From: a virus
Direction: 5' to 3' (one strand)
IMG/VR virus record: IMGVR_UViG_3300042876_000444
Coordinates: 1-36,803 of that record
DNA: 36,803 nt
Positions 13,095 to 36,803 of this stretch are shown here, piece by piece. Under the pieces are notes generated by a model. It was not told the DNA's origin. It searched no databases and saw only the letters and a program-made list of their open reading frames with translations. Within the stretch, counting starts at the first letter, position 1. Each line of letters starts with the position of its first letter. Both the position numbers and the translations under genes were made by a program.

Positions 13095-13102
13095 CCCAAG
13101 CC

Positions 13103-13128
13103 GCCGGGGGCACCGCGCCCCCGGCTTT
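13103..13128 (+). terminator. Terminator-like hairpin between head and tail genes
   Basis: GCCGGGGGC (13103-13111) pairs with GCCCCCGGC (13117-13125) around ACCGC, followed by TTT. It separates the head-decoration block from the tail genes. The T-run is short, so termination is probably partial. Confidence 0.6.
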
Positions 13129-13142
13129 CCTGGAGGAGAATC

Positions 13143-15609: not shown

Positions 15610-16476
15610 ATGGCCTTAGATTGGGGAAAAGTAGACTGGAAAAACGACTGGTGGAAGTATGCCCTCATGGGAGGGGCGACCCTGGTATCGCCTATCGTGG
15701 GAGGAAGCATCCTCCTTGGGGCTCTGGCGAACGAAGAAGAACGCCAAAGGGTGAACCAGCAGCAACAAGATGCGGAATCAGAACATACGGCAACCGAAGC
15801 CGCCACCGACGCAACCTGGCGCAAGCAGATGCAGGAATCCGAACGGCAGGCTGGCGACATAGAGGCGCAAATTGCCGAACTGTCCCGCCGGGCTGAGGCC
15901 AATAACGAATCGAGCATCGACCAACTCAAGACGGCCTACGGCTACGACGGACGGATCGGTACGGCTTGGTCGGATTACATCAACAATTCCACGGCCGCCC
16001 GACAATCCCAAGGATCCTACAAGCAAGCCGCGGCCTCTTCCGGCCTTAAGAATTCAGGATCGATTCAGACGATGGGGACCATGCTGGACCAGAACATCGC
16101 CCAGGCCCAGCAGATCCAGCGAGACGCGATCGAGGGAGGCCTCCGCGCGAACGTCTCTGGAATCAAGGACCAATGGGACTCGGCTCAATTCACCATAGGG
16201 CAGGCCCGGGAAGATGTAGCCAATTTGAGAGAGGACTGGGAGGGCTTTAACTGGGATAGCTTCATCAATCCCGCCGGGGATTCCTTGAACCAGCAGTTGT
16301 ACCAGACGAAGCGCGCCGCATTGGACGCTTCCTGGACGCAGCAGAACCGCCAATTCCAGTACGCCCTCGAGGATTCGGATCCGTTCAACATTTGGAACAT
16401 CGCCAATGGGGCCAAGAGCGGCATCGACTTGGGGCTGAACCTCTTCGGGAAAGCCATGAGCTTCGGGATGATCTAG
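15610..16476 (+). CDS. Internal virion protein (gp14-like)
   Basis: A 288-residue protein starting immediately after the nozzle stop. One hydrophobic segment near residues 19-38 (ALMGGATLVSPIVGGSILLG) could cross the envelope. A Gln/Glu-rich coiled region follows (about 43-95), then a helical region with SQGSYKQAAASSGLKNSGSI and a C-terminal amphipathic stretch. Composition, size and place match the smallest ejection protein of T7-like phages, which helps build the trans-envelope channel. Sequence similarity is not claimed; position and topology support the call. Confidence 0.6.
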   Translation: MALDWGKVDWKNDWWKYALMGGATLVSPIVGGSILLGALANEEERQRVNQQQQDAESEHTATEAATDATWRKQMQESERQAGDIEAQIAELSRRAEANNESSIDQLKTAYGYDGRIGTAWSDYINNSTAARQSQGSYKQAAASSGLKNSGSIQTMGTMLDQNIAQAQQIQRDAIEGGLRANVSGIKDQWDSAQFTIGQAREDVANLREDWEGFNWDSFINPAGDSLNQQLYQTKRAALDASWTQQNRQFQYALEDSDPFNIWNIANGAKSGIDLGLNLFGKAMSFGMI

Positions 16477-16485
16477 GGGAGAACC

Positions 16486-21300: not shown

Positions 21301-24300
21301 GCGAGAGCCAGGAGACTATTCGGCTTGCGACAGGATGGTTCCAGGGGAAATATGACGGGAAATGGCGGACTGAAATATCCGATAAAAGCGCCTTCTATTT
21401 CCACGCTGATCGCTTGCAGGAAAACAAGGCCGTTCGGTTAGGAGAGATCCTTGATTACCCCGAATTATACAAGAAATATCCCGAGATAAAGAACGTTTCC
21501 GTCGCAAGCCTTCCAAAACGGGACGAGGCCTATGGCCCTGTCGCCGCACTCGGGGAGGATCGCGCAGGAAACAAGTATCTCCTCGTCAATGCGGAAGCCA
21601 TGCCCAACCAGTGGGAATTGGACAAAGTCATCGCGCACGAGATCCAGCATTGGATCCAGGAAAAAGAAGGATTTGCAAAAGGGGCCAATTCTGACGAGAT
21701 CCGAGAGCGACGAGCGGAACTCAAGAAGGAATGGGAAATCGTCTCAACCGCCTACAACATGGCGCGCGACCTCGCCAAGGGAGGGAGCATCGACACGATT
21801 ATCTCGCAATATGAAGAGATAAACGAACGGCCTATCGATTACAGAGAAATGTCCCTGGCCATGAATGAAAGTGTCGAGGACCTCAAGGCCCAAGAAGAGA
21901 CCCTTAGGATCCAGCTTGAACCGCTTGGAGTGCTGTCGGATAAAAGCATATCGATATATCACCTTACCGCCGGGGAAATCGAAGCGCGCGACGTTGAAAG
22001 CCGGTTTGGGTTAAGCGATTCACAGCGTAAAGCAATCCCGCCATACTCGTCGGAAAACATCCCGGAGAAAGAAGCCATCCTCTTCCAGCTCACCGACGAC
22101 GAAATTCTCAAGACCGCCCGCGATTCGACCGACTGGAAAGACTTCATGGGCGTCCTCGAGGCGTTCGGAGACAACGACGAAAAGACCGAGGGCATGAGCA
22201 AGGAGCAGAAAGAAGCCTGGTACAAGGAGGCTTTCGACCGTCTCCGACAGGATGGCGAGCCCGACCAGAAGCGCCCCGCAGCCGAGGCCGACCAGGAATT
22301 CCGCCAGAAGGTATCCGGCCGCATGGGCGAATTCCTCCAGGCCATTTACTACGCAATCCTGGGGCCGGACCAGAACAACGCTCCGGCCGACGCCGAGGAA
22401 GCCGCACTCTTCGACCGCCAGGCCGAGATCCAGACCCGACTCGAGAAGGACATGCATCCGACCGTCAAGAACGCCGCCCTGACCGTGGGCCGCGGGAAGG
22501 AGCTCACCGAGCGCACCGAGAAGGCCATCCTCACCCTCATGCGCAAGGATGGCGCCGTTTCCGAGTACCGCCGCTGGTGGGCCGAGCTCATGCAGGACGA
22601 AGAGCTCCAGGACGTTGACGAGACCGCCACGGCCGAGGCCCTGCCAGAGATCGACGACGGGGAAGGACGCCCGCGAACGAGCATCGAGGACCGGCTAAGG
22701 CTCCAGCGCGCCGTCAAGAACGAGGAACTCCGCAAGAAGATAGCCACAGGCGAGATCGTCGTGGACCGCGACGTGGCCGCCTACGTCAAGGACCTGGACG
22801 AGCAGAAGTCCGGCCTCGAGGAGAAGCTGGCCACGGCCCAGAAGGACTACCAGGACATCGACGGCCGCCTGACCACCTACGAGAAGCACTTCCGGCACCT
22901 CACCCGCGACCTGGCCGAGCGCGAAAAAGAGATCAAGGCCCAGGACAAAGAGCTGGCCGACCTCCTGGAGGGACGCGAGCGGGCCAAGGACAGGGCAAAG
23001 CAGGCGCGGGAAGCGTCCGCCGAGAAGCAGGCCAGCCTCTTCGAGGCCCTCTCGAGCGCGCGCAAAGAGTCCCGCCTGGCCATCAAGACCATCAAGGAAG
23101 AGCTGGCCGCCCTTAAGGACAAGGAAGTGGACCAGGCCCGGGTCGATGCGATGGACAGGGCCGAGGCAAAGATCGAGGAATACAAGGGCCACGTCAAGGA
23201 GATCCAGGACCGGAAGAAGGAAGCCAAGCGGATCCGGGACTACAAGCTCGAGCTGGCCGACCGCATCATGGCCAAGATCCCGCAGTCAGTCGCCTTCGAG
23301 CAGCGCGAAGAGATCCGCGCCCTCCAGAAAGCGCTCGACCCGCACTTCCGCCGAGCCCGGATCAAGTGGAAGGGCGAATACCTGGACATCGCCACCCTCC
23401 GGGATAATCCCGAATTCGCGCGGGACTCCGGCCTGTCCGCCGAGGTCATCGACATGCTTTCCAAGCGGTCCCTCGGGGAATGGTCCCTGGCCGATCTGGA
23501 GGAGCTGGCCCGCCGGATCGACGACCTCGTAGCCATGGGACGCCGCAAGCGCGACTTTGAGGTTCTGGAATGGAAGCGCGACCGCTACCTCCTCACCCGC
23601 GGGATCATCAACGACGTACTGGCCGCCGGGAAATACAAGCCGGCCTCCGCCTCCGGATCGGACGAGCGCGGGAAACAACTCAAGAAAATGGACAACTTCT
23701 CCCGGTCGGTATTCCTCCAGACGCACAACATGGCCCGCATCGCCAACCAGCTCGACGGGGGGACGAACGGCTGGAACACCAAGGCCCTCGTCACCGATGA
23801 GCGCGCGGCCCGGGCGGAGAAGCTCCGAAACATGGACCGCCGCATCGAGAAGATCCAGGCGGAAATGAAGCGCTTGAACCTCACGCCCCAAGACCTCTAC
23901 AAGGTCAAGAAAACCATTACCGGGATCGGCCCGGACAAGTCGGACGTGACCTTCACGGCCTCCGACCTCATGTATATCAGGATCGGCCTGGAGAACAAGG
24001 AGACCCGAGCGGCCATCATGTTCGGAAACCTGGCGAACCAGAAAGAGCGCGCCGAGACCGACCGGACGATCCTCGAGCTAGAGGCGAATGAGAAGATCGT
24101 CACCCTCCAGCGCGCGATTTCCGAGGCCCTGACCCCGGAAATGATCGAACTCACGGACCTCATCGGCCAGGACTTCGAGGACGAATTCGGCCGCATGAAC
24201 GACGTTTTCATAAAGGAATTCAATAACACCATGTCCCAAGTGGCCGCGTACGTCCCCATGATCCGGCAGGACACGTCCGCATCAGGGGAAAAGCACGAGA

Positions 24301-25703
24301 AGGCCCAGGCCGAGGAACTCTTGAACGTGGGCGGCGTTTCCATTAAGCGAAGCCCCGACAAGGGCATGACGATATCCCGCGTCAAGATTTCCCCCGAGAA
24401 CCAACGGGCCATCAAGCTGGACCTGTACGGGACATGGCTCACGGCCGTCGAGCGCCAGGAGCATTTTACCGCATACACCCACTACGTCCGCAGCCTGAAC
24501 GCAGTCTACAAGGGGAACTCGATGGAGTCCCGATCCTTGCGCGATACCATCGTCAATTCCTGGGGCGCCGGTACCATGCGCTACATCGAGGAGCGCATCA
24601 CCGAGATCGCCAACCCCTCAAGCATGGACTCGAGCGCCGGCATCGACAAGATCGTCCGAGCGCTCCGCGGGAACCTGGGCGCCGCGTACCTTGGCTGGAA
24701 AACCTCCGGCATCGTAAAGCAGGCCCTCACCTCGCCCGCCCCATTCCTGGCCTACGTTGACCCCGTCACGATGGCCGGAGCGGCGTTCGAGTACCTTTCA
24801 AGCCCCAAGCAATTCGAGGCGGCCGTGAAGCAGTCCGAGGTCATGAAGCACCGCGTCATGAGCCCGATCCTTGAGGCCATCCGGAAGGCGAAGATGGACC
24901 CGGGCGTCAATAAGGCCCTGGCCACGGTATCCGACCTGGGCATGAAGGGCCTCGAGGCCGTGGACTGGCTTTCCGTTTCCATCGGCTGGAAGGCCGTCTA
25001 CAACTCAGCACAGGGGAAGATAAGCAAGGGAGGCGAATTCGCCACCATCGGGGCCAAGACCTACCGAGTCCAGCCCGGCGAACACCAGGAGCACGTCTAT
25101 ACCGCCAGCGAGATAGCCGACGACATCACCCTGGAGTGCCAGCCGTCCGCCGATCCGGCCGACCTGGCCCCGCTCTTCAAGAGCAAAGGGAAGGGCGGCG
25201 AGGCCCTTAAGGCCTTCACGCAATTCCAAAGCGCCCTGAACGTGATTTACCAGCAGATATCATACGACGTGCCCAACGCCATCAAGAACAAGCGCCTGGG
25301 CGCGGCCGTCCGCATGATCGGGGCCTATGTCCTGGCCGGGATCCTGGTCGGCATGGTCTCGCGCGGTCCTGAGGACGACGACGACGACAAGCGGGACGAC
25401 GTGGCGTTCTGGGCCATGACGCAATTCACGGACTCCGTCCCACTCGTTTCGTCCTACGTCACCGGCCTGGCCAAGAAAGTCGTCACAGGCTCGAACGAGC
25501 GGCCCTATCAAAGCCCTATGTTCCCATTCGTATCGGAGATTTACGCAGGATCGATCAATGTCACAGATGGCGACTGGCAGAAGGCAGCGCAGAACTTCGC
25601 GGAGGCCGTCGGCTACGGGGTCGGCTTGCCAGTATCGGGAGTCAAGGAAGCGATTCGGGCGGGCGAGGAAGGCCCGGGCGCCTTAGTAGGGAGAAGGAAC
25701 TAG
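18396..25703 (+). CDS. Giant polyvalent internal virion protein with two zincin motifs
   Basis: A protein of 2435 residues. ATG 18396 is chosen, in an ATGA overlap, over a GTG thirty bases upstream. Residues about 185-235 are hydrophobic. HEMVHSF at 684-690 is a zinc metallopeptidase motif with a helical follow-up (RLAYSFEKYLETG). Residues about 960-1220 resemble the LPD23 domain of large polyvalent proteins: GWFQGKYDGKWRTEISD, then HEIQH at 1081-1085 and EGFAKGAN. A long coiled coil spans about 1440-1640. A helical core follows, with a membrane segment near 2306-2322 and a DDDDD run after it. Such proteins are packaged and ejected into the host with the DNA to aid entry or counter defences. 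The role is inferred from domain style and location. Confidence 0.75.
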   Translation: MSDIYEATDSIFEKRLGVLREKYPDAVTGMDQNQQQLTDSIYTRSLAQTFNDLPPEDQEDEAYKLMSSVLVSKMLRQDASTVYDNWDATVETWQGSKIRPKDFFDRTRMAWNSGVLNTQLGIAYSKKMTQEINGEDTAQIDQEIAAIEAKMPPSIQYKDILPRAFFGATEMVGQIVQNQVEGYKAGLPRATALAGTGAALAAAAGVAGPQALVPEEILTVPGLAGAMFTVGLVSSSVETMAKIEAGLAYKEMRSWKDENGQALDPAIMQQAAMAIGGVNGFIEFAQDVFLPGVGEIPKELLKKSLGEGMMKVFAKDSLKGPVMALAKRLGVDKAAAALGKAGAAKVLTETAKTAIGETSQEVAQEVVSVIGEEWSKALSNNLKGTQFEAARPEDIKERLVQVATDSVLSFGLYGAVAHGAKGAVSLAQGRGKINAQAKADVDAATPALKEIFGTPDGEAAVRTEKGDIYVQTRKGSTSAEGATAAKVLAGSPKTGEKYGVADYTIEGDTVRISDVTVDPTLADSDAVVEALIRKVAEDAPGLQIDVDTENEAVQAVVSRMTEQNPRGKEFGVQWYEADSDIGQVRDFVGFKQKMAQVFTKATTEQIDFTAWQVKQRAARVGMTPEAYIRKWYAPEAFTKTMPVEAERAVAAMDTRRNIMGTTVFRDSRALIYAAQSADFRTLQHEMVHSFFNEIEETQAEDYQTLSSAFGVVDEQGKARAWTDHDRERLAYSFEKYLETGQAENPAMRNILQKIVDWMVSTYRTIAGKMKVTPEIKAAFDQMFADPTSPISEAAQTVAEKAEQAPLFQEAQGARSVSTIIFKFPESLKAYSDIHSQAQVSGVLNVFGRGVVDAKGNMKIGDVGSSHAQLGQGMTDAKRFYFGYSREKQAVYVVAKNGMDESYIRSPAVLQKILSSVFDKYRLNVAQGKRLAFAEKEGPGVLFQYAGEGSELETKEKKSLSVAKAMQEKGESQETIRLATGWFQGKYDGKWRTEISDKSAFYFHADRLQENKAVRLGEILDYPELYKKYPEIKNVSVASLPKRDEAYGPVAALGEDRAGNKYLLVNAEAMPNQWELDKVIAHEIQHWIQEKEGFAKGANSDEIRERRAELKKEWEIVSTAYNMARDLAKGGSIDTIISQYEEINERPIDYREMSLAMNESVEDLKAQEETLRIQLEPLGVLSDKSISIYHLTAGEIEARDVESRFGLSDSQRKAIPPYSSENIPEKEAILFQLTDDEILKTARDSTDWKDFMGVLEAFGDNDEKTEGMSKEQKEAWYKEAFDRLRQDGEPDQKRPAAEADQEFRQKVSGRMGEFLQAIYYAILGPDQNNAPADAEEAALFDRQAEIQTRLEKDMHPTVKNAALTVGRGKELTERTEKAILTLMRKDGAVSEYRRWWAELMQDEELQDVDETATAEALPEIDDGEGRPRTSIEDRLRLQRAVKNEELRKKIATGEIVVDRDVAAYVKDLDEQKSGLEEKLATAQKDYQDIDGRLTTYEKHFRHLTRDLAEREKEIKAQDKELADLLEGRERAKDRAKQAREASAEKQASLFEALSSARKESRLAIKTIKEELAALKDKEVDQARVDAMDRAEAKIEEYKGHVKEIQDRKKEAKRIRDYKLELADRIMAKIPQSVAFEQREEIRALQKALDPHFRRARIKWKGEYLDIATLRDNPEFARDSGLSAEVIDMLSKRSLGEWSLADLEELARRIDDLVAMGRRKRDFEVLEWKRDRYLLTRGIINDVLAAGKYKPASASGSDERGKQLKKMDNFSRSVFLQTHNMARIANQLDGGTNGWNTKALVTDERAARAEKLRNMDRRIEKIQAEMKRLNLTPQDLYKVKKTITGIGPDKSDVTFTASDLMYIRIGLENKETRAAIMFGNLANQKERAETDRTILELEANEKIVTLQRAISEALTPEMIELTDLIGQDFEDEFGRMNDVFIKEFNNTMSQVAAYVPMIRQDTSASGEKHEKAQAEELLNVGGVSIKRSPDKGMTISRVKISPENQRAIKLDLYGTWLTAVERQEHFTAYTHYVRSLNAVYKGNSMESRSLRDTIVNSWGAGTMRYIEERITEIANPSSMDSSAGIDKIVRALRGNLGAAYLGWKTSGIVKQALTSPAPFLAYVDPVTMAGAAFEYLSSPKQFEAAVKQSEVMKHRVMSPILEAIRKAKMDPGVNKALATVSDLGMKGLEAVDWLSVSIGWKAVYNSAQGKISKGGEFATIGAKTYRVQPGEHQEHVYTASEIADDITLECQPSADPADLAPLFKSKGKGGEALKAFTQFQSALNVIYQQISYDVPNAIKNKRLGAAVRMIGAYVLAGILVGMVSRGPEDDDDDKRDDVAFWAMTQFTDSVPLVSSYVTGLAKKVVTGSNERPYQSPMFPFVSEIYAGSINVTDGDWQKAAQNFAEAVGYGVGLPVSGVKEAIRAGEEGPGALVGRRN

Positions 25704-28700: not shown

Positions 28701-29267
28701 CGCTTCAACGACGCGGGAACGGACCTCGGAAGCGGGACGGGATTCTGGCTTGGGGCGAGCGGCATACTCAAGGCGGTATCGGCCATCCTGGATAACTGCA
28801 CGATTAGCGGGGAGTTTTATGCGAGCAATGGAAGATGCCGCGTCACCGGAGACAGCGTAATTGTAACCAGCTACGACCAACGCGTGGCAGAACCTTCCTC
28901 CGGGTCAAAGCTCGTAATGGACTCAGGAGGGATGGCGTTCTATATAAAAACAAGCGGGACATGGTCACAGCGTGCAACCATTCCTGCATCAGGAGGATTC
29001 TACGACCAAGGCACGAATGGCCTACATACTGAAGGTCCTATTGTTAGCGGCGACACCCTTTCAGTCGATGCGATAATCGATTACGGATATGCCATTATAG
29101 GAGCCTGGCTATCGTGTGAAAGAGTAAAGCTAGACGCTCACGCTACAGATACTGCCCCAGCAATAGATGCGGGATCATTAGTAAGGGCTTACTCCTCAGA
29201 TGACGGTCCACGATATTGTGACGATTCTAGCTGGAAACATTTTCAGATGATAGCAGGATGGCGCTAA
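25704..29267 (+). CDS. Tail fibre / receptor-binding protein
   Basis: A 1187-residue protein starting the base after the giant gene stop. Residues 60-170 and 585-690 are two divergent copies of a helical unit (LTPVEKQALLTIWNGI versus ITPGEKLAIYSRWYAI, both followed by a YNYLF/NAYLYT and a second helix). A LamG-like lectin fold begins near 231 (AAYYSFDDHPDFPD) and ends near 565 (DELVLFFRALTDAEARGL). Another beta module at about 247-372 interrupts it. Residues 950-1187 are a beta-rich tip with A/T-richer DNA. The likely role is adsorption to surface glycans. The modular make-up and late position support a fibre or spike. Confidence 0.78.
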   Translation: MAKLKTIAGDLQVNGAIDAVGGLNSNAQISITTKSSAANGSVQVIRGDLAAAQAAISDMADDGKLTPVEKQALLTIWNGIESERPRVIAQAHSVGIQDSDASLVAYNAAYTALYNYLFGTGGVLVSMETTATIIRATMVSLFNAYYSSLTISTDIQEAMLQGISDAQAAADAGAKVWISSSQPTISTRPNAINGDTWVNTGSVVNGRNPMLLAVGGAWLLQDSELPLDPAAYYSFDDHPDFPDRLDGISYTSNFATADGWTANANGPITVSGGSLVVAANQQYAYRAGDFNGKNVRVKITAGSAGTYYIGYRTTGGTYKLTAFPRVFASGESALINASIAEATSHVFVGNGTQAFTMQKAQIGTGEYSSPTPDNSGKGNNLTAYGVTPCDGISGKGIMFDGVNDYLRTILPLDAVPDVWNIEFEYVGHLLATRQTFVNYKGYSNTAGYIDARRQENTNDLAFSYCSGSTYAMVQFSNFFVGFTDVRCKIAFEINWATGVIKAWRNGAYIGSVTMATPVKPTAGSYIYYGSYQGTNHFTVGTIDELVLFFRALTDAEARGLYLAKALPKVYTLANWQSDQAASDSVITPGEKLAIYSRWYAINGDGSTTGTYWTARAAADALSFSTTTGPLKTLIDARDALNAYLYTSTGILSAAYWLNNIQIVPATYQAAWATYDAALDALDRAIGATNAANAAAAAQVAAEAYSDGLDDALRLQTDRAITYYTQTGDPSTAWTTDALKVLHKGDYWRTAATAQWKVWTASAWSVAINDPLAQAAADAAQDTADGKTTVFATLALAQAGAEIGDLFLDAGLLYRATVAAASITLANSTRLTPKSWGSLATAPSSGMIANDTYYNTTLSVWYYYSGSAWVSSSVSIADAAPQYRGIGILAGATTRAFRKDAVDANGTITNGSSVTPNVGDWMINYAATNLAIGIYVWGGSTWTASTDYKYIGGEAAIDLCYLGVGGITVSGLTTFLTAIIKTLFAKYITILSGGAIKGGTRFNDAGTDLGSGTGFWLGASGILKAVSAILDNCTISGEFYASNGRCRVTGDSVIVTSYDQRVAEPSSGSKLVMDSGGMAFYIKTSGTWSQRATIPASGGFYDQGTNGLHTEGPIVSGDTLSVDAIIDYGYAIIGAWLSCERVKLDAHATDTAPAIDAGSLVRAYSSDDGPRYCDDSSWKHFQMIAGWR

Positions 29268-29824
29268 TGAAGTATTTCTTCAGAACAACCGACAATCTTG
29301 GGACTCCAAACGTGGTAGACGCACGCACTGGGATTTTTTCAAACGCAGAAAGTATTGAAGGATACTATTGTGTAGATATTGACAAATATCCTGAATATTT
29401 TCCCAACGTAGAAGACGAACGCACAAAAGAACGAAGGATTGTCCAGCGCGGACTGATGGAAGGATGGGAAAATCTTCCGCTCAAAACCTTCGACCCGGAA
29501 ACTGGACAATTTGCTGACTTTGATCCCTATGCCTGCGAAGCGCTTCAGCGATGGTATCGCCGAGATCATGTTATACAACCATCGATAGTAAAAGCAATAA
29601 ATCCCGGCACCGAGTACAAGAAGATCCGCCGCGCCATGCTCGCCATCCTCGACGCGCTCAAGGACAAGAAGCTCGAAGAGCACGAGGACATCATCGCTTT
29701 CCGCGAGTACAGCGCGAGCATCGAGGCCTTCATAGACGCGAATCCCAAGAGCGTGAAGCGGGACATGCGCGAGATAAATGGGACGAAGAAAAAAGACAAG
29801 GAGGGCGCAGATGGCGGTTTGTGA
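29267..29824 (+). CDS. Possible tail fibre assembly chaperone
   Basis: A 185-residue protein. The start at ATG 29267 (TAATG overlap with the fibre stop) is preferred over ATG 29258 because AGGA at 29254-29257 gives proper spacing only to the former. N-terminal strands (KYFFRTTDNLGTPNVVDARTGIF) are followed by aromatic-rich turns and a helical C-terminus (KKIRRAMLAILDALKDKK). The first 110 codons are A/T-rich like the fibre tip, whereas the rest is GC-rich. A small gene right after a fibre with matching composition is typical of a cognate chaperone. No family match is claimed. Confidence 0.5.
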   Translation: MKYFFRTTDNLGTPNVVDARTGIFSNAESIEGYYCVDIDKYPEYFPNVEDERTKERRIVQRGLMEGWENLPLKTFDPETGQFADFDPYACEALQRWYRRDHVIQPSIVKAINPGTEYKKIRRAMLAILDALKDKKLEEHEDIIAFREYSASIEAFIDANPKSVKRDMREINGTKKKDKEGADGGL

Positions 29825-30173
29825 CGCGCACGAAGGAATGGCGGGAAACATCGAGCACCTGAGAAAAAGTGTTGACCAACTCTACGACCTCAACCGGCAG
29901 GCGCTAAAAGAAGCGGGAGAGACGACGCGGTCAATGGCCCAGCTCTTCGAGAGCACTGCGCAAAACGAGAACAACCTCCGCGAATTCAAAGCCGAAAGCT
30001 CCGCACACCTGAGCGCCCAGGACAAGAAGATGGACGACATCCTCGCCGCCGTGTCCGCCCTCAAGCGCCGCCGGTCTCCCGCCAAGAGCATTGCCATCGT
30101 CGCCGCGTCGCTCCTCGGGGGCGGAGGGCTGGCGTCCATCATCAACGCAGTTTTTGGAGGCGTGAAGAAATGA
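29811..30173 (+). CDS. XhlA-like coiled-coil membrane protein of the lysis module
   Basis: A 120-residue protein. GGAGGG at 29800-29805 fixes the start at ATG 29811, inside the end of the previous gene. A coiled coil at about residues 12-82 (VDQLYDLNRQALKEA..., LREFKAESSAHLSAQDKK) is followed by a basic RRR cluster and one C-terminal transmembrane helix (IAIVAASLLGGGGLASIINAVF). This topology matches XhlA-type proteins and other small lysis-associated membrane proteins. It directly precedes an endolysin with an ATGA overlap. It may assist the holin encoded downstream. Confidence 0.55.
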   Translation: MAVCDAHEGMAGNIEHLRKSVDQLYDLNRQALKEAGETTRSMAQLFESTAQNENNLREFKAESSAHLSAQDKKMDDILAAVSALKRRRSPAKSIAIVAASLLGGGGLASIINAVFGGVKK

Positions 30174-30649
30174 TCCACCGCGACCTAAACCTTTTGACAG
30201 ACGACATGCGCCACCGGCTCAACACCGCCATCGCGCGGCTCATCCAGGCCGACCTCCCGACCTATGTCTACGAGACGCTCCGGGACGACGAGGTGCAAGC
30301 CGCCTACTGCGCGCAGGGACGGATGCCGCTTGATGAAGTGAACGCGCTCCGGAAGTCGGCAGGACTCTACCTCATCACCGAGGCGCAGAACCGATCCAAG
30401 ATCACGACCGATCCGCCCGGAGGCCTGGCGACCGTCTACAAGGGCGTCGGACACGGCAATGGGACGGCCGCCGATCTTGTCCCGCTGCGCGACGGAGACC
30501 TCTGGTGGAATGCGCCCGAAGAGGAATGGACCAAGCGCGGGGTGATCTATGAAAGCGCCGGCCTGGTATGGGGCGGGCGATGGGCAAAGTACGGGGCGCC
30601 CGGATGGGACGGCCCCCATGTTCAGTTGCCGAGGAGGACCCCTGCATGA
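30170..30649 (+). CDS. Endolysin, M15-family peptidase
   Basis: A 159-residue protein. GHGNGTAAD at 94-102 matches the M15 motif HxxGxAxD, giving zinc ligands His95 and Asp102. Glu128 in YESAGLVWGG is the probable general base, and His150 in GPHVQL the third ligand. This is the L-alanyl-D-glutamate or D-Ala-D-Ala peptidase type of phage lysin, cutting peptidoglycan stem peptides. There is no signal peptide, so it needs a holin; one lies at 32642. It overlaps neighbours on both sides by ATGA. Confidence 0.82.
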   Translation: MIHRDLNLLTDDMRHRLNTAIARLIQADLPTYVYETLRDDEVQAAYCAQGRMPLDEVNALRKSAGLYLITEAQNRSKITTDPPGGLATVYKGVGHGNGTAADLVPLRDGDLWWNAPEEEWTKRGVIYESAGLVWGGRWAKYGAPGWDGPHVQLPRRTPA

Positions 30650-32640
30650 GCATGAACCCTGTCAACAGCACGAGCGGCTATTCATACGCGGAGGTTGTGA
30701 GTCTTGATACTGATGGCACCCTCGCGCTCCAGGTTGGCGATCGAGTCGCCGTCAAGATATCGGGGCACAATGCCGCCGGGAATATCCCGACAGCATCGGT
30801 TGGCGTCGTCGGAGGGTCTGAGGTAGGCGTCGCGCAAGAATGGTCTCTGTACAACGGGGCCGTTGACCTCCTCGAACGGTTCTTCGTCATCACCATCACC
30901 GAAGCGCGCACGGCGGCCATAAGGCTGTCCCTCACGTCTGGCTTGACCGTCGTCGATATGCAGGCCCTCCAGGTCCGTCCCGATGCCGGGGAGACGATAA
31001 CCGTCGTCGACCACCGGCCCGCCTATGGCGCTTCCGCGACGATCCAGTCCGGCATGATATCGGCTTCGGGGGACGATACCCTAGCCATTGCGGGAGGATG
31101 GAACCGTGCGGGAACGGCACTAGCCAATGAACAGATCGGCGGAGTCGCGGCCGATGGATACCGTCGCAGCGGGCGGGGTGGCATTTGGTGGAGAGCATTC
31201 TCTTCCGCTCAGAGCGACATCAGGGGCACGGCTACCTTCGGCGACAATGACACCTGGTTAGCGGACATCATCTTCCTCGTTTCGGCCGTATCTGGGCCCG
31301 TCGGGCATACCCTGGCCTACAACGCCAACGGTGCCACGCACGGAAGCGCCCCGGCATCAAGCTCCAATGCGGCGGACGCGCAGATTTCTGTCGCGGCCCG
31401 GCCGATCCACATGGTCCGCTTCGGATACATCTTCACCGGCTGGAACACCGCCGCCAACGGATCGGGCACGGCCTACGCCGCAGGCGCCACGCTCACGATG
31501 CCCGACGCGGACGTGACGCTCTACGCCCAATGGACGGCCTACGTGGGAGGGCCGCGCGTTATCCGCAACGGGACGCACGACCCGGCCTCCTTGACCGATG
31601 CGCAGGTTCTCGCCGCCGCCGCGCTCAAGGTCTACGTCGAGCATGCCTCCGTTGGTCAGGACGTTTTTGGGGACTCGGACGTTGATTCGAGCACGGGCGT
31701 CGACCATAACGAGCTCACCGACCTATGCGGCCTAGCCCTACTCTACGCGCAGAATCCCCGGTATAGCCTTCTTCGCGATCATCACGCGTCCGGATACTCC
31801 GCCGCCTGGTTCTCTAGCCATAACGGGATCCAGGACAATTTCCGGGGTAATCCAGGACTTGCCGCCAAGCTGTCAGGCTTCGCTTCTTCCCTTTCGGCCC
31901 TCGGGGCTGTCGTTGGGGTGGCCTTCCAGAAGGAATGCTTCATCGACGCTTCGGCCGACCCTGATGCCGATTTCGACGCGATCCGGTCGGCGCATACCAC
32001 GGCCCAGGCGGCGAACCCCGGGGTCGTCATCCCCCTCGTGACCATCCCGATCGAGACAGCGGCGAACACCGACCACAACCCAACATCACGTCAGCACTCA
32101 AACGTAATGATCCGCCAGTATGGCGTCGAGAACAATCTCCCGCTTTGGGATATCGCCGACATGCAGTCCGACGGAGGAACGGAAATATCTGGCGGCCGGG
32201 AGTGCATGGTCTCATCATACAGTTCGGACGGCGGGCACCTGAACGAGGCAGGAAAATTGAAGATCGGCGGCTCCGTGTGGCGCCTTTTATCTCTATCCGC
32301 AAGCATCTTAGGAGGTGGAATTGTGGCGAGCTTAGCGTATACGCCTACCGTCGGGGCAATGAAGAACTTCAACGACGCATCGGGAACTAAGACGATTTCC
32401 AACGGCGCGGCCAAGGGGACGCTCGCCGCCGCGGCTGTCGTCTATTCTCTTCTCGGGACAAAGGGTATCCCCCTTGTGACTGTCGGGGCAGGCGTGACGG
32501 CCTACTACTCGACGGACCCAGAACTGGCCATGGACTCGACGAGTCGGAACTGGACGCAGATATCGGGGGCTCTCACGGCACGACCCGCGGCGATCGCCTT
32601 TTCCGGGACGGGGACCTACGAGCTTTTCGTAGGAGAATAG
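30646..32640 (+). CDS. SGNH-family hydrolase with Listeria-Bacteroides repeat (tail spike or surface enzyme)
   Basis: A 664-residue protein starting at ATG 30646 after GAGGAGG. Residues 1-215 are beta-rich and of unknown fold. Residues 222-297 are a Listeria-Bacteroides/Flg_new repeat (LAYNANG, FGYIFTGWNTAANGSG, LYAQW). An SGNH-type hydrolase follows: VEHASVG with Ser335 as nucleophile, then DGGHLNEAG with Asp528-x2-His531, the family's catalytic pair. The last 100 residues are another beta module. SGNH enzymes remove acyl groups from polysaccharides or lipids. On a phage this would suit deacetylation of host surface glycan. Whether it is a virion component is not shown by sequence. Confidence 0.7.
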   Translation: MSMNPVNSTSGYSYAEVVSLDTDGTLALQVGDRVAVKISGHNAAGNIPTASVGVVGGSEVGVAQEWSLYNGAVDLLERFFVITITEARTAAIRLSLTSGLTVVDMQALQVRPDAGETITVVDHRPAYGASATIQSGMISASGDDTLAIAGGWNRAGTALANEQIGGVAADGYRRSGRGGIWWRAFSSAQSDIRGTATFGDNDTWLADIIFLVSAVSGPVGHTLAYNANGATHGSAPASSSNAADAQISVAARPIHMVRFGYIFTGWNTAANGSGTAYAAGATLTMPDADVTLYAQWTAYVGGPRVIRNGTHDPASLTDAQVLAAAALKVYVEHASVGQDVFGDSDVDSSTGVDHNELTDLCGLALLYAQNPRYSLLRDHHASGYSAAWFSSHNGIQDNFRGNPGLAAKLSGFASSLSALGAVVGVAFQKECFIDASADPDADFDAIRSAHTTAQAANPGVVIPLVTIPIETAANTDHNPTSRQHSNVMIRQYGVENNLPLWDIADMQSDGGTEISGGRECMVSSYSSDGGHLNEAGKLKIGGSVWRLLSLSASILGGGIVASLAYTPTVGAMKNFNDASGTKTISNGAAKGTLAAAAVVYSLLGTKGIPLVTVGAGVTAYYSTDPELAMDSTSRNWTQISGALTARPAAIAFSGTGTYELFVGE

Positions 32641-32641
32641 C

Positions 32642-33115
32642 ATGGCGGGGGATATCAAGATCGATTTACAGGGCTTGCAGGGGCTAGTCACGGGAGGAGC
32701 GTCCGCTTTTAAGACGGTGGTGGAAACCATCAAGGGCAAGGCCACCCTTGACCCGAAGGACCAGGCTATCCTAGACCAAGCCATCCTCGAGCACGAGGCC
32801 AAGATGCAGGAGCTCGAACAGGCCATCCCCCTGGCTATGATCGAACTCAACAAGATCGACGCGGCCAGCAAGAGCCTTTTCCAGTCCGGGTGGCGGCCGT
32901 TCATCGGCTGGGGTTGCGGCGTCGGTATCGTCGCCTACTACCCCGTCCGCGTCGTCCTAGGCATGGGATTCTGGTGCTGGGCTTGCATCCAGAAAGGAGA
33001 GCTTGTCCCCATGCCCGACCTGGGGATCATGGACCTCATCGGCCTTGTTTCCTCAATGATGGGATTCGGATACTTCCGGACTCGCGAGAAAGAAAAAGGA
33101 GTGGCCTCGTCATGA
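32642..33115 (+). CDS. Holin, 3-TM (GTA holin) family
   Basis: A 157-residue protein starting at ATG 32642 behind AGGAGA. Residues 35-75 are a charged helix (LDQAILEHEAKMQELEQ), then SLFQSGWRPFIGWGCGVG, the characteristic entry to the membrane part of the GTA_holin_3TM family. Hydrophobic helices follow at about 88-120, and a further one near 128-142. It would permeabilise the inner membrane to release the M15 lysin. It is followed in ATGA overlap by a lipase-like gene. Confidence 0.78.
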   Translation: MAGDIKIDLQGLQGLVTGGASAFKTVVETIKGKATLDPKDQAILDQAILEHEAKMQELEQAIPLAMIELNKIDAASKSLFQSGWRPFIGWGCGVGIVAYYPVRVVLGMGFWCWACIQKGELVPMPDLGIMDLIGLVSSMMGFGYFRTREKEKGVASS

Positions 33116-33678
33116 CTCTCCTCGAGGAATTCCGAATATGCAATGGCGGATCCTACCAGAATACCAAGAGCAAGGTCTCCTGGAAGATCGTCGGGGACAC
33201 CATGTATTTTCAGCCGTCCAGCGGAGCCGAGGACTGGTGGAAGAATATCACCATCATCCCCTGGCTCACCAAGATCGGCGGGAAGTGGATGCTGGTCCAC
33301 CTGGGATTCCACCTGGCATGGCTCGAAGTGAAGGACATCGTTGAGCGCGCGATGGTCAAGCGATTCAGCGGGTATTCCCATGGCGGCCCCCTGGCCGCGC
33401 GCGCCGCCGCGCACCGTGGCCTACCCGCCGACGTGTTCGGATGCCCGAACTTCCTCCTCTGCCCCTCGGATGCGTCTAGGGCGATATTCGACGAGGTCCA
33501 CTTCTACCAGAACCCCAACGACATCATGACGCGCCTGCCCAGCGGCTATACGAAAGGCCGATACTGGCAGACCCTCGGAGGCCGGGCCTCTATGCCCCCA
33601 GGTTACGATCCATTCCAATGGCTGACCGGCCATACCCCTGCCGAATATGAACAGCGACTCGCGGCCATCGGTGAATAA
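33112..33678 (+). CDS. Lipase class 3-like hydrolase
   Basis: A 188-residue protein starting at ATG 33112 in an ATGA overlap with the holin. GYSHG at 87-91 is a G-x-S-x-G nucleophile elbow with Ser89. VHLGFHLAW at 62-70 is the preceding strand motif of class 3 lipases. NPNDIMTRLP at 134-143 supplies the probable Asp137, and GHTPAEY at 173-179 the probable His174. All four stand in class-3 lipase order. It has no signal peptide. In the lysis cassette it may hydrolyse envelope lipids or esters to finish lysis, comparable in idea to LysB enzymes but not homologous. Confidence 0.65.
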   Translation: MTLLEEFRICNGGSYQNTKSKVSWKIVGDTMYFQPSSGAEDWWKNITIIPWLTKIGGKWMLVHLGFHLAWLEVKDIVERAMVKRFSGYSHGGPLAARAAAHRGLPADVFGCPNFLLCPSDASRAIFDEVHFYQNPNDIMTRLPSGYTKGRYWQTLGGRASMPPGYDPFQWLTGHTPAEYEQRLAAIGE

Positions 33679-33928
33679 GTACACGGAGGCGGCCAGGGAC
33701 AACCTCCTGGCCGCGGCCGGCCGCTGGACACCTGAAGAGCAGCGCGTCGCCGCGGAACTCATCGAGACCTATTCAGGTATGGCGGACAGCACGGAGCGCG
33801 TTATTCACGACTTCGTGAAGGCTCTCGAAGCTTTCGACTTGCGCGAGGCGGCCCGAGTAGTCGGTCGATTACCTTCACCTGGTCAGAATAATCGTATAAC
33901 TCCCGATGGGTGTAGCCTTCCTGGGTAG
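33671..33928 (+). CDS. Small protein convergent with the integrase, unknown
   Basis: About 85 residues when started at GTG 33671, overlapping the lipase stop; an in-frame ATG at 33647 is an alternative. Helical (YTEAARDNLLAAAGRWTPEEQRVAAELIETYSGM in two helices). The last 40 codons run antisense through the end of the integrase gene, overlapping it by 128 bases, and the final part (SPGQNNRITPDGCSLPG) looks like read-through rather than folded protein. The gene may have lost its original end when the integrase module joined. No family recognised. Confidence 0.4.
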   Translation: MNKYTEAARDNLLAAAGRWTPEEQRVAAELIETYSGMADSTERVIHDFVKALEAFDLREAARVVGRLPSPGQNNRITPDGCSLPG

Positions 33929-34916
33929 AATCATTTGACCAGCCCAGCGCGGCCCGGATTCCCTCGTCCGAAACGCCGTTTCCCCGTAGGTGGGTATTCA
34001 GGGAATGGCGCAGCGAGTGAAGGGTGACCCCGGGAACATCCGCGGCGATGGCTACCTGGCGGAATTCCTTGGCCCATCGGGTATAGCCCATGCCGGAGAA
34101 AACGAAGGCCTCCGCGTCATCGTCCCGCCGCAGCTCGAGGACGGCCTGCAGGGCGAGCGGATAGGGCGCGGTTCGGAACTTTCCCCACTTTGGCGGCAGG
34201 ATCTCGGACGTGGTTTGATCGAGGGCCTTGGTTATGGAAATGGTCTTCGCCTTGACGTTCAGGTCCCCCCAGGTAAGGGCCCTAACCTCCCCCGCCCGCG
34301 CGCCCGTCATCGCCGCCGTGACCGTGGCCGCCCAGTGTTCCCAGCACGACCACCGAGAGAAGAGCAGGAGCCCGCGGACATCCACCAGGGGAAGGGCCTT
34401 GCGCGCTTTCTTGGGATAGGCGACCTGGCCGATCTTGGCGCAGGGATCGCGGGTCATGTACTCGAGGAAGAGCGCCTCGTGGATCGCCACGGAGAAGAGG
34501 CGCATAGCGACGTTCACCGTCCGGCAAGCCCCGAGCGATTCGACCAGGCGCCTACGGAGCCCGAGCACGTCCCCGCGGGTCAATTCACCGAGCGCGATGG
34601 AGCAGATCGGATCCGGGAGAATGACGCGCTCCAGGAGCGAGCGGTTTGCCTTGCGGTTTTTCTCCGCGTAGTTTTTCCCCTCATCGCGCAGCCTGGTGAT
34701 ATGCGGGCACGTATCGGAATAGAACGGCTTGAGGAAGTCCCCGACGAGCGTATCGGAGCCAGTGGGCTGGCCGATGATGCGCAGGGCTTCCTTATGCGCG
34801 GCCTTCTCGTTCGTCTTTCCCGTGGAGACGAAGACGCGCTTCCCTCCGCGCCGGAAGCGGACATAGAAAATGTCACCCCGCCCAGCAATCTTCCCGACCC
34901 AGTAATCAGTATCCAT
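33801..34916 (-). CDS. int: Tyrosine integrase
   Basis: A 371-residue site-specific recombinase on the minus strand. Start at 34916 (MDTDYWVGK) is preferred because GGGGGT lies upstream; a start at 34937 would add seven residues but has no ribosome site. The N-terminal arm-binding part (about 1-55) and a core-binding domain (about 56-165) precede the catalytic domain. There Arg207 in TGARAGEVRAL, His300 and Arg303 in HSLRH, Trp326 in LGWS and the nucleophile Tyr335 in GYTH are all present. It lacks the extra helix motif of integron integrases, so it is a phage enzyme. It is encoded next to its att core and arm-type repeats. Confidence 0.88.
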   Translation of the reverse strand: MDTDYWVGKIAGRGDIFYVRFRRGGKRVFVSTGKTNEKAAHKEALRIIGQPTGSDTLVGDFLKPFYSDTCPHITRLRDEGKNYAEKNRKANRSLLERVILPDPICSIALGELTRGDVLGLRRRLVESLGACRTVNVAMRLFSVAIHEALFLEYMTRDPCAKIGQVAYPKKARKALPLVDVRGLLLFSRWSCWEHWAATVTAAMTGARAGEVRALTWGDLNVKAKTISITKALDQTTSEILPPKWGKFRTAPYPLALQAVLELRRDDDAEAFVFSGMGYTRWAKEFRQVAIAADVPGVTLHSLRHSLNTHLRGNGVSDEGIRAALGWSNDSTQEGYTHRELYDYSDQVKVIDRLLGPPRASRKLREPSRSRE

Positions 34917-34936
34917 GATGCCTACCCCCGTTGGCA

Positions 34937-34956
34937 TGGTTGCAAAGTGGTTGCAA
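34937..34956 (+). repeat. Arm-type integrase sites, left of attP (two TGGTTGCAA)
   Basis: TGGTTGCAA occurs at 34937-34945 and 34948-34956, 11 bases apart, one helical turn. The same pair with the same spacing occurs on the other side of the att core. The repeats lie just upstream of the integrase start, so binding could also repress it. Confidence 0.6.
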
Positions 34957-35015
34957 TACCCATGCGTTAAGTATCGGCAGGAGCGGGGCGAATCCGTTAT
35001 TCGTTGTTTTGTATT

Positions 35016-35113
35016 GAATTACGAAATGCGACCAGAGGGACTCGAACCCCCGACCTGCTGCTTAGAAGGCTAAAATAGCCTATTTTCAAAGAATTACGCC
35101 AAAACGAATTACG
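35016..35113 (+). repeat. GAATTACG direct repeats around the att core
   Basis: GAATTACG occurs at 35016-35023, 35091-35098 and 35106-35113, one just beyond the tRNA 3' end and two on the other side of the core. The latter two are 15 bases apart. They may bind an excisionase or a host factor. Function inferred from placement only. Confidence 0.4.
35027..35070 (-). other. attP: attP core: 3' half of tRNA-Arg(TCT)
   Basis: Read on the minus strand, these 44 bases are the anticodon loop CTTCTAA, its 3' stem GCAGC, a variable loop, a T-arm with GGTTCGAGTCC, the 3' acceptor strand TGGTCGC and the discriminator A. The 5' half (D-arm and GCGACCA acceptor strand) is missing; A/T-rich unrelated DNA stands there. 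This is the usual crossover region for tyrosine integrases that regenerate the tRNA after integration. Anticodon TCT identifies tRNA-Arg. It is not a functional tRNA gene here. Confidence 0.8.
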
Positions 35114-35177
35114 CGCTAACTCGTTTCGGGGCCTAAACTAGGCACTCCACCGTAGACCATGGCAGACCATGGCACAA

Positions 35178-35206
35178 TGGTGCAAATGGTTGCAAATTGG
35201 TTGCAA
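35178..35206 (+). repeat. Arm-type integrase sites, right of attP
   Basis: TGGTTGCAA at 35187-35195 and 35198-35206, 11 bases apart, same orientation and spacing as the pair at 34937-34956. A near copy TGGTGCAA at 35178-35185 precedes them. Just before, AGACCATGGCA is repeated in tandem at about 35154-35174. Confidence 0.6.
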
Positions 35207-35227
35207 TGGTTTCGCACAACGCGAAAA

Positions 35228-35593
35228 TCAAAGCGGGGATCGCAGGTAGAAAAGATCGTATACCGCGACGGTAAAATCCTTGTCTTTGTTTTCAGGTAAA
35301 GAAAAGTAGTAATCAAAGTAGCTTATCATTATTTCAATTACCCCATCCTCCGAATCACGAAGGCTTTTGCGCGACGCGAGAGCGGAAACATACCATTCAG
35401 GAACCGGCTGGTTTTTAGGAAGCCACACTTCGAGCTTTCCCCTGGCGTCTTCACCTAAAAAAAAGCCGTAACAAAGGATATACCGTTCGTTCTCTGACAG
35501 GCTGTTCCAAAAATATCGCCCGACGATGGAATCCTCAGCAAAGGCCACCGCCCCCGCCAAGGCAAACAAGAGTACGAATAATGTCTTTTTCAT
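35228..35593 (-). CDS. Secreted protein, unknown (lysogeny-region moron)
   Basis: A 121-residue protein starting at ATG 35593 on the minus strand, with AGAGGG just upstream. The first 19 residues are a clear signal peptide (MKKTLFVLLFALAGAVAFA, cleavage after AFA). The mature part has many aromatics (RYFWNSLSENERYILCYGFF, YFDYYFSLPEN) and one cysteine. Being alone between attP and the regulators, with A/T-richer codons, it looks like a cargo gene expressed from the prophage and exported by the host. A TATACT at 35612-35617 (minus strand) could be its -10 box. No family recognised. Confidence 0.6.
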   Translation of the reverse strand: MKKTLFVLLFALAGAVAFAEDSIVGRYFWNSLSENERYILCYGFFLGEDARGKLEVWLPKNQPVPEWYVSALASRKSLRDSEDGVIEIMISYFDYYFSLPENKDKDFTVAVYDLFYLRSPL

Positions 35594-35718
35594 GGTTTAC
35601 CCTCTAGCGCAAGTATAGCGCATTTTCCGGAACCGTGCTATTTTTCTATCCGCCTCCGCAAGTGCCGAGCCCATAGGGTAAAAACTTGCTCCAATCCTCA
35701 TGGATGGAGCACGTCCCT

Positions 35719-35933: not shown

Positions 35934-36116
35934 ATGACCAGCCACGACTTGCGCGAGCTTCGCGCGCAGATTTACGAGGAAATGAAGAACGGCGCGCGCA
36001 TGAAGCGCCTTGCCCACCGGGAGGGAAGCCGACAAGACGAGGCCTATTGGCGCGCGTATGTCGAGAGATCCATCCGTTTCCTCTCCGCTCTGGACCGTCT
36101 CATCGTCGAGGAGTAG
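35934..36116 (+). CDS. Small helical protein, unknown (60 aa)
   Basis: A 60-residue, highly charged helical protein starting at ATG 35934 after CGGGGGACC. It follows the HTH gene by 26 bases and probably shares its transcript. Sequence LRELRAQIYEEMKNGARMKRLA and a second helix suggest a hairpin-type small binding protein. Its last 73 bases overlap the end of the opposite-strand gene 36044-36304, so the two transcripts are antisense to one another. No family recognised. Confidence 0.4.
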   Translation: MTSHDLRELRAQIYEEMKNGARMKRLAHREGSRQDEAYWRAYVERSIRFLSALDRLIVEE

Positions 36117-36304
36117 CTGTCCCGTAAAAGGGAAATGATATAATCGCGCGGATCGTCGCCAGATATCCGCGCAGCTTCTTCCATGGCCTCGTATGTCGCC
36201 CGGGCCAAGCTAACCGTCGCCATCATCGAATCGTCGTCCAAGAGACGCACGTCTACCATGTCCGCTATGGGCGTTGCGGGAGCCCTAAAATTAATGAGTT
36301 CCAT
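36044..36304 (-). CDS. Ribbon-helix-helix-like protein (second gene of leftward operon)
   Basis: An 86-residue protein starting at ATG 36304 on the minus strand with AAAGG about eight bases upstream. A strand (MATVSLARATYEAMEEAAR...) followed by two helices (EAMEEAARISGD and PRDYIISLLRDSY) has the ribbon-helix-helix outline of Arc/CopG-type DNA-binding proteins, followed by a basic tail. It lies 18 bases after the first gene of the operon. Its end overlaps a rightward gene. Role in lysogeny control is inferred. Confidence 0.5.
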   Translation of the reverse strand: MELINFRAPATPIADMVDVRLLDDDSMMATVSLARATYEAMEEAARISGDDPRDYIISLLRDSYSSTMRRSRAERKRMDLSTYARQ

Positions 36305-36322
36305 TTTTCTACCTTTCTTTTC

Positions 36323-36691
36323 TTATCGGCCGGTCCCGTCCTTTTCAAGAGGTCCCACTTTTTTGCCTGACGAAATCCGCTTTTTTGCCACGGGAGGCGC
36401 CGTCCTGACGTAGTCGGGCTTGCCAGGGATCGGCTGGCCGTATTCTTCTTTTCGGACAATACCCCGCTTAGAAAGAGACGCGACATTTAGAGAAACAATT
36501 TCCACAGAAGTGTTTGTCTCAGACCTACAAGACAAATCAGCTCTATATACCGACACGTCGAGGCCATTTTCTTCCAGGTAATCAAGAACCGCCCCGTACA
36601 AGACTTCCTGGGCCGAATCCTCATTTTCAGCGAGTTTTGTATTGAACACCTTCCTCACTAAATCAGGGACACGCGCGGCAACTTGTTTCAA
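36323..36691 (-). CDS. Ribbon-helix-helix repressor candidate (first gene of leftward operon)
   Basis: A 122-residue protein starting at TTG 36691, chosen because AGGAGG at 36697-36702 (minus strand) lies five bases before it. The N-terminus KQVAARVPDLVRKVFNTKL gives the DNA-binding ribbon and first helix, and SAQEVLYGAVLDYLEENG the second helix of an Arc-like fold. The C-terminal half (about 55-122) is a strand-rich, basic extension. The promoter upstream holds repeated TAACATGC elements, probable operators, suggesting autoregulation and control of the rightward early promoter. Best candidate for the lysogeny repressor. Confidence 0.6.
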   Translation of the reverse strand: MKQVAARVPDLVRKVFNTKLAENEDSAQEVLYGAVLDYLEENGLDVSVYRADLSCRSETNTSVEIVSLNVASLSKRGIVRKEEYGQPIPGKPDYVRTAPPVAKKRISSGKKVGPLEKDGTGR

Positions 36692-36721
36692 GTCAACCTC
36701 CTACAATGCCAACATGCTAAC

Positions 36722-36749
36722 ATTATAGCACAACTCCAAGAAAATGCAA
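36722..36749 (-). promoter_or_regulatory. Leftward promoter of the RHH operon
   Basis: On the minus strand TATAAT (36722-36727) is a perfect -10 box, with TTGCAT (36744-36749) 16 bases upstream as a weak -35. AACATGC (36711-36717) and TAACAT (36718-36723) overlap the -10 and start region. Confidence 0.6.
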
Positions 36750-36768
36750 GAAACCTCGAAAACCCCTC

Positions 36769-36797
36769 TTGACGGGTGCATGTTACCGTGTTAACAT
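36769..36797 (+). promoter_or_regulatory. Rightward early promoter
   Basis: TTGACG at 36769-36774 and TAACAT at 36792-36797 are separated by 17 bases, a good sigma-70 spacing. It directs transcription out of the window's right end, presumably to early genes that precede ssb in a circular map. Confidence 0.6.
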
Positions 36798-36799
36798 GC
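36778..36799. promoter_or_regulatory. Operator: inverted TAACATGC pair
   Basis: GCATGTTA (36778-36785) and TAACATGC (36792-36799) form a perfect 8-bp inverted repeat separated by six bases, covering the spacer and -10 of the rightward promoter. Related AACATGC sits in the leftward promoter at 36711-36717. A repressor bound here would block the early promoter. Confidence 0.6.
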
Positions 36800-36803
36800 C
36801 GAC

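Follow-up and report, generated by a model that had tools for sequence, protein, structure and literature searches.

What would an enzyme resembling the class 3 lipases, best known from fungi, do directly behind a phage holin? The question is raised by positions 32642-33678 of IMG/VR virus record IMGVR_UViG_3300042876_000444, the whole 36,803-nt stretch of which was analyzed and is referred to here as the window. The span comprises two genes, coding for a holin (157 aa; 32642..33115, plus strand) and a class 3 lipase-like hydrolase (188 aa; 33112..33678, plus strand). The initial annotation linked the second gene to the holin and placed it in a lysis module together with an M15 lysin and an SGNH hydrolase.

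The lipase gene and its neighbors

The ATG of the lipase gene (33112-33114) and the TGA of the holin gene (33113-33115) have two bases in common, forming an ATGA (33112..33115, plus strand; gap of -4), and the lipase thus starts inside the holin stop, as first annotated. A likely ribosome-binding site, GGAG (33098..33101, plus strand), lies 10 bases 5' of the ATG, and from the ATGA we infer that translation of the two genes is coupled. The holin is of the GTA_holin_3TM type (PF11351, E 2.7e-14, 54.2 bits against a cut-off of 24.8; phrog_3427, E 1.2e-17). The lipase motifs GYSHG (residues 87-91), NPNDIMTRLP (134-143), and GHTPAEY (173-179) are all present in the order originally described, and residues 89, 137, and 174 are S, D, and H, agreeing with the numbering Ser89/Asp137/His174. 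Hydropathy reveals no hydrophobic N terminus, signal peptide, or membrane segment in the lipase; the hydropathy rule used missed the membrane segments of the window holin. The lipase was also considered as a spanin and rejected, there being no lipobox, N-terminal hydrophobic stretch, or membrane segment.

The surrounding genes run in the order 1,187-aa fiber-like protein, 188-aa protein, 131-aa protein, M15 lysin, fiber-like protein with InlB repeats, holin, lipase, small open reading frame (ORF), and an integrase on the opposite strand. The 131-aa protein (29778..30173, plus strand) has one C-terminal hydrophobic segment with a coil-like part before it, a layout that suggests a holin or XhlA-like protein, and it matches no Pfam or PHROGs family above the cut-off. 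The M15-type endolysin (159 aa; 30170..30649, plus strand) matches PF13539 (E 4e-6, 27.8 bits against a cut-off of 25), the phrog_465 endolysins (E 4.8e-11), and PDB 2vo9 (E 1e-3). With this lysin ∼2.5 kb upstream and the holin overlapped, the lipase has the place of a lysis-cassette gene. The small ORF (33671..33928, plus strand) has a GTG start overlapping the lipase stop and an end overlapping the integrase gene; its longer frame (33647-33928) has Pfam matches only at E above 0.1 and none in PHROGs. The tyrosine integrase (33801..34937, minus strand) matches PF00589 (E 1.1e-13) and phrog_1 (E 3.5e-38). The late region also includes an ORF of 2,445 aa (18366-25703).

The module was proposed to attack peptide, ester, and lipid bonds, and its M15 member stands on the PF13539 and phrog_465 matches, whereas the SGNH hydrolase, and with it the third activity, finds no support. 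The protein at 30646..32640 (plus strand) matches the InlB/Flg_new repeat (PF09479, E 3.1e-11, with the longer start), and no SGNH domain is found in it with Pfam (InlB/Flg_new only), PHROGs (no match), or NCBIfam; the part at 31558-32320 has no match, SGNH or other, among PDB sequences. Judged by its Listeria-Bacteroides/InlB-type repeats, it is likely a fiber or adhesin, and the SGNH partner enzyme was dropped.

Another, independent IMG/VR contig, L002, shares 99.99% identity with window positions 1-17317 and also matches 36047-36802, with ∼3.4 kb between the two; because L002 joins both window ends, the window is most of a ∼40-kb genome that is circular or circularly permuted. The bridging ∼3.4 kb includes an ORF with Gly-Asp/Ser-Tyr repeats. 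By a home-made rule, no lipobox ORF of at least 40 aa is present on the window sense strand, nor is there a lipobox ORF on either strand of L002 701-4300, and for this reason no ordinary o-spanin or u-spanin is seen in these regions. On the window antisense strand, 15 start choices pass a loose lipobox rule and were taken for chance frames.

A divergent class 3 lipase-type hydrolase

Compared on its own, the window lipase has no match at E 1 in Pfam, including PF01764, and a weak one in PHROGs (phrog_21992 esterase/lipase, E 0.027). No match was obtained among PDB sequences, among 50,697 phage records (tblastn, E up to 1), or among 72,556 plasmids, its own peptides have none in IMG/VR, and it has none in GTDB genomes; by these comparisons the protein is by itself close to an orphan. 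Relatives were found through a degenerate DNA pattern around GYSHGG, which yielded 13 IMG/VR loci, 11 of them with the same protein layout; one of the 11 is a fragment (L086) and was retained in alignments. L088, by sequence a different kind of alpha/beta hydrolase, and L097, a frame of 76 residues, were dropped. The S, D, and H are common to all 12 aligned sequences (11 relatives and the window lipase).

A profile of the 11 phage relatives, built without the window lipase, scores the window lipase at 55.3 bits (E 5.8e-16), and none of 2000 shuffles of the lipase matches this profile at E 10, so that membership in the GYSHGG family is more than chance. Among window six-frame stretches of at least 50 aa, apart from the lipase itself, just the longer frame containing it matches at E 10. 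The profile of 36 lipases of a sister group (see below) likewise scores the window lipase (21.4 bits, E 2e-5), with no shuffle listed. All 12 aligned members match phrog_21992 at E 1 or better (best, 6.2e-23), as do 11 of the 12 for PF01764 Lipase_3 (best, 4.9e-18). Among PDB sequences, the 12-sequence profile, with the window lipase included, picks out the lipases of Thermomyces and Rhizomucor (E 4.7e-21 to 1.3e-17); in the E 4.7e-21 match, Thermomyces lipase, Ser146 and Asp201 align on the family Ser and Asp, and the His lies beyond that profile alignment. When 61 phage rows, a number of them near-identical, are aligned jointly, Ser89, Asp137, and His174 are identical in 61/61, and so are Gly87, Ser89, and Gly91 of the GxSxG elbow.

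Structure prediction, which had been put forward as a means of refuting the assignment, returned an alpha/beta-hydrolase core, with Ser89/Asp137/His174 conserved and in order. AlphaFold2 with 21 sequences (the window lipase and 20 phage relatives) gave a confident model (pLDDT 88.5, pTM 0.87); a model from the single sequence (pLDDT 35.2) was discarded. The first Foldseek matches in the PDB are feruloyl esterase A (E 1.2e-8) and the Rhizomucor and Thermomyces lipases. Structural re-alignment covers 173-175 of the 188 residues at an rmsd of 2.7-3.0, with Z scores of 18.2 for feruloyl esterase A and 17.7 for Thermomyces lipase. The latter is covered up to residue 265, a range that includes His258, which we take to be its catalytic His. 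The best BFVD match of the model is a 'Lipase' of Siphoviridae sp. ctnpt50 (E 5.6e-11), and mycobacteriophage LysB is absent among the structural matches listed.

The initial assignment to lipase class 3 is thus borne out by the conserved Ser-Asp-His, the profiles, and the class 3-type fold of the model; on sequence and model, the identification as a class 3 lipase-type alpha/beta hydrolase holds, and ester hydrolysis is the predicted activity. The likeness to the class 3 lipases (PF01764 Lipase_3; Thermomyces/Rhizomucor, feruloyl esterase A) lies in the fold model, the GxSxG elbow, the Asp in ND-I/V-x-x-LP, and the late His. These enzymes differ in having about 260-270 aa against the 188 aa of the window lipase, which is without a signal peptide, has no lid helix in its model, and carries GYSHGG instead of GHSLGG. 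In the model, strand 50-55 is followed almost immediately by strand 58-63 without a helical lid, for which reason the enzyme could equally well be an esterase or a lipase sensu stricto; with feruloyl esterase A as the top match, it may act on small or sugar esters. Within phages, the window lipase is a divergent relative of the phrog_21992 esterase/lipase family, which is annotated in Burkholderia phage BgManors32 and archaeal virus vir526 and is filed by PHROGs under 'other', not lysis.

Recurrence beside lysis-type genes and other locations

Close association of class 3 lipases with lysis-type genes is found repeatedly among phages. In BgManors32, the order begins with a coil-like protein that has a single hydrophobic segment, followed by a GH19-type endolysin (phrog_181, E 3.5e-56), an HNH gene, a 109-aa holin-like protein, a lipoprotein, and a lipase (PF01764, E 1.8e-15; phrog_21992, E 1.4e-79), with the lipoprotein and lipase genes overlapping by 4 nt. 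Shewanella phage vB_Sb_QDWS has a 67-aa coil-like protein, an endolysin (phrog_181, E 1.1e-64), minor tail and hypothetical genes, a 69-aa holin-like protein, a lipoprotein, a lipase whose gene overlaps the lipoprotein gene by 4 nt, and an opposite-strand integrase, nearly the same plan as the window. The 109-aa and 69-aa proteins have two hydrophobic segments each and no family match at E 0.05, and are putatively holin-like by layout only. The two lipases are found by the window-group profile (E 5.6e-17 for BgManors32 and 1.5e-13 for QDWS). Hujiaoplasma phage zrk29-1 (OP650936.1; host given as Tenericutes bacterium) and QDWS (OK094664.1) are both 47,902 in length and have the same lipase match; they may be one phage, with the host label doubtful.

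A scan with the BgManors32 lipase gave a sister group of 34 IMG/VR loci, related to the window group by profile-profile comparison (probability 99.6%, E 2e-24). An adjacent upstream gene is present in 29/34, it overlaps the lipase gene by 4 or 1 nt in 27/34, and it codes for a lipobox in 25/34; in L137, L138, and L164, a lipobox frame ends directly 5' of the lipase and was left out of the 25 by the frame rule. Among control ORFs, 13/243 have a lipobox: five are upstream lipoproteins missed by the rule (L137, L138, L164, and L160 and L161, in which the lipobox gene ends 352 nt upstream of the lipase) and eight are a second small lipobox ORF. The controls therefore contain the signal itself, since all 13 are lipoproteins of lipase loci. 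The 40 lipases in this analysis form 27 clusters at 90% identity and are thus not one phage counted repeatedly.

The lipobox gene adjoining the lipase is of the MKKLMLLAAG..LAAC type and is found among L132-L165 (the 25/34) and in BgManors32 and QDWS (L121:3450-3938 and L125:4540-5004). Its product might be a u-spanin, a second hydrophobic segment being present in several, or could guard the cell against the lipase. The second small lipoprotein upstream of the lipase, with a shared C-A-G-x-A-x-Y/F-x-V/I-x-P-F, occurs in eight loci (L136:1301-1651, L142:2216-2530, L152:642-956, L155:642-956, L159:2260-2574, L160:1866-2183, L161:1866-2183, and L164:2029-2478).

Membrane-type partners are seen as well. 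In L096, the lipase start overlaps a gene whose product has a hydrophobic segment at the C terminus (phrog_937 hemolysin, E 2.7e-7), with a YkuD-domain protein next, and in L085 the lipase overlaps a one-segment membrane-like protein; some loci are one contig fetched twice (e.g., L096/L098/L166 and L085/L111/L172). The L085 lipase may start earlier, with a hydrophobic N-terminal segment (10435-10534), unlike the window lipase. Because such lipases adjoin lysis-type genes elsewhere, the link between lipase and lysis genes is not peculiar to the window phage. The initial remark that lipases of this class are no standard part of phage lysis agrees with the literature searched (titles and abstract openings), in which no description of one in a phage lysis cassette was found, and yet they recur beside lysis-type genes in other phages. 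It is this repeated partnership that the present analysis adds.

The partnership is only one arrangement within the wider family. In 25 tabulated loci, the lipase overlaps a membrane or lipoprotein gene in five (the window, L111, L098, BgManors32, and QDWS) and does not in 20, which include archaeal virus vir526, cyanophage Cr-LKS4, and Xanthomonas phage XacN1; four of the 25 (L100, L102, L108, and L113) were measured from non-start codons and their gaps are off by some bases. Near relatives of L096 are mixed, with a membrane-like gene 8 nt away in L169 and no adjacent gene by the rule used in L167 and L168. In L112 and L117 (34-35% GC), the lipase follows long fiber-like genes and precedes an opposite-strand integrase; hosts of these low-GC phages may have a single membrane. 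Near holins of the window type, in regions from six phages of 48 records, no lipase is annotated and neither lipase profile has a match, with both positives matched. The lipase family thus looks mobile, with the lysis operon only one of its homes.

Among relatives of the window terminase and portal, the window lipase is in 0/50 of the loci (50 of 81, chosen mainly for length, with many fragments maybe short of the lysis region, and searched without a known positive, so that an empty result by itself shows nothing), and phrog_21992 (E 0.10) and PF01764 (E 0.04) each have a weak match in 1/50, in a bacterial MAG. Our guess is that the lipase gene was acquired apart from the phage backbone. Two further arrangements were observed. 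In phage all-k141_1748665 (L130), a 170-aa protein (2959-3471; phrog_8035, E 2.5e-30) overlaps the stop of a holin of the same type by 4 nt, occupying the place that the lipase has in the window. In L107 (9959-11988), a second lipase-like fragment (11683-11985) lies 3' of the lipase, separated from it by a homing-endonuclease gene (10732-11682; phrog_655, E 3.9e-20), and is perhaps a duplicate split by that gene.

Proposed role and alternatives

We would give an even chance to the window lipase being a LysB-like accessory lysis enzyme that is released through the holin and cuts envelope lipids, possibly in the step that disrupts the outer membrane. The enzyme, a small soluble lipase or esterase of the class 3 kind (a serine hydrolase with Ser89-Asp137-His174), would be made together with the holin by way of the start-stop overlap. 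Having neither a signal peptide nor a membrane segment, it would be held in the cytoplasm, like an ordinary endolysin, until the holin opens the membrane. Once in the periplasm, alongside the M15 lysin, it would hydrolyze esters in the lipids of the envelope and so help to remove the last membrane barrier, the job of LysB in mycobacteriophages and of spanins in most Gram-negative phages. The gene itself, the fold model, the conserved triad, the overlap with the holin, the recurrence beside lysis-type genes, and the lack of a sense-strand lipobox ORF support this role; in it, we infer catalysis by the window lipase, its substrate, its late expression, an outer-membrane host, and participation in lysis.

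LysB is similar in being a phage alpha/beta serine hydrolase of the lysis module with an accessory role, and mutants deleted for it are described as defective in lysis, with release delayed and burst size reduced (PMC6116114). It differs in being cutinase-like and in cutting mycolyl esters, whereas the window lipase is of the class 3 kind, and there is no sign of a mycobacterial host. In phages of Pseudomonas syringae pv. actinidiae, a GDSL lipase is described upstream of the holin and endolysin (PMC12173070). This also places a lipase beside lysis genes of a Gram-negative phage, but the enzyme is of the GDSL type, has a carbohydrate-binding domain, and precedes the holin. Spanins possibly serve the same step, outer-membrane disruption, but are a membrane-fusion device, whereas the window lipase is an enzyme without lipobox or membrane segment.

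It is possible, if rather doubtful, that class 3 lipases, either alone behind a holin as in the window or coupled to a lipoprotein as in BgManors32, QDWS, and 25/34 sister loci, are an undescribed enzymatic route of outer-membrane lysis in Gram-negative phages, and that the window lipase stands in for a missing spanin. A survey of spanins lists 91/677 genomes without one and asks for another route; the word 'lipase' occurs 0 times in its main text (PMC6139136). Alteromonas phage AD45-P1 is on its spanin-less list (PMC6139136) and has a holin with 37.7% identity to the window holin over 71% of the length; annotation and lipase profiles place no lipase beside it. Replacement of spanins by the lipase was not adopted as a general rule, as most sister cassettes have a lipoprotein; in phages of the BgManors32 type, the lipase would be an addition rather than a replacement, because the adjoining lipoprotein could itself be a spanin.

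Several other roles have to be weighed against accessory lysis. The lipase could act after lysis, freed with the progeny to clear extracellular polymers or ester-linked groups (capsule, EPS, and LPS debris) and ease spread. Without an export signal it would be released only at lysis, the top solved structure match is a feruloyl esterase, an enzyme whose substrates are polysaccharide esters, and in L112 and L117 the lipase lies 3' of long fiber-like genes. PghP of Bacillus phage PhiNIT1 offers a precedent (PMC12173070). However, such a role gives no account of the close overlaps seen repeatedly with holin or lipoprotein genes, and we consider it unlikely. Similar doubts, a little stronger, attach to the lipase being a passenger (moron), a gene for lysogenic conversion or superinfection exclusion at the end of the late operon by the integrase, and elsewhere perhaps paired with a protective lipoprotein in the manner of lipase effector/immunity pairs. 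An opposite-strand integrase adjoins in the window, QDWS, L112, and L117, an adjacent lipobox gene is present in 25/34 sister loci, and two cassette lipoproteins match a superinfection-exclusion family very weakly (E 0.058 and 0.089). The lipase start codon, on the other hand, overlaps the upstream holin gene, the sole sigma-70-like match in 29000-35700 is at 29050 (against a mean of 2.6 in shuffles, and for the sigma-70 type only), the lipase is without a signal peptide, and its partner in the window is a holin, not a lipoprotein.

Coupling to the holin without an export signal would also suit a cytoplasmic phospholipase or acylhydrolase that alters the lipids of the inner membrane and thereby sets, or makes sharper, the moment at which the holin triggers. 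This is improbable: an active cytoplasmic lipase could harm virion production, the sister lipases are coupled to lipoproteins and not to holins, and the literature searched yielded no precedent. Least probable by far is a virion part used at entry like the tail-associated depolymerases, a role to which the contigs with the lipase 3' of long fiber-like genes might point; the protein is a small single domain with nothing left for virion attachment (residues 1-183 of the model align to lipases), and its start overlaps the holin stop.

As an accessory lysis enzyme, the lipase would maybe be a little-noticed tool for opening bacterial envelopes at the end of infection and, if so, would carry the LysB concept to phages other than those of mycobacteria. 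A one-gene hydrolase that recurs in overlap with holin or lipoprotein genes and keeps its catalytic residues is a concrete and testable candidate for the envelope-lysis step.

An outer membrane of the host is assumed in this account, the source being an IMG/VR record. The hosts named among the 48 holin-relative records include Vibrio, Alteromonas, Pseudoalteromonas, Roseobacter, and Paracoccus, and for the phage portal, Pelagibacter HTVC phages are the best among the matches listed. Near the integrase is a gene for a 121-aa protein (35228-35593, minus strand) that has a signal-peptide-like N terminus and no Pfam or PHROGs match; it is possibly a lysogen-expressed gene and a clue to the host.
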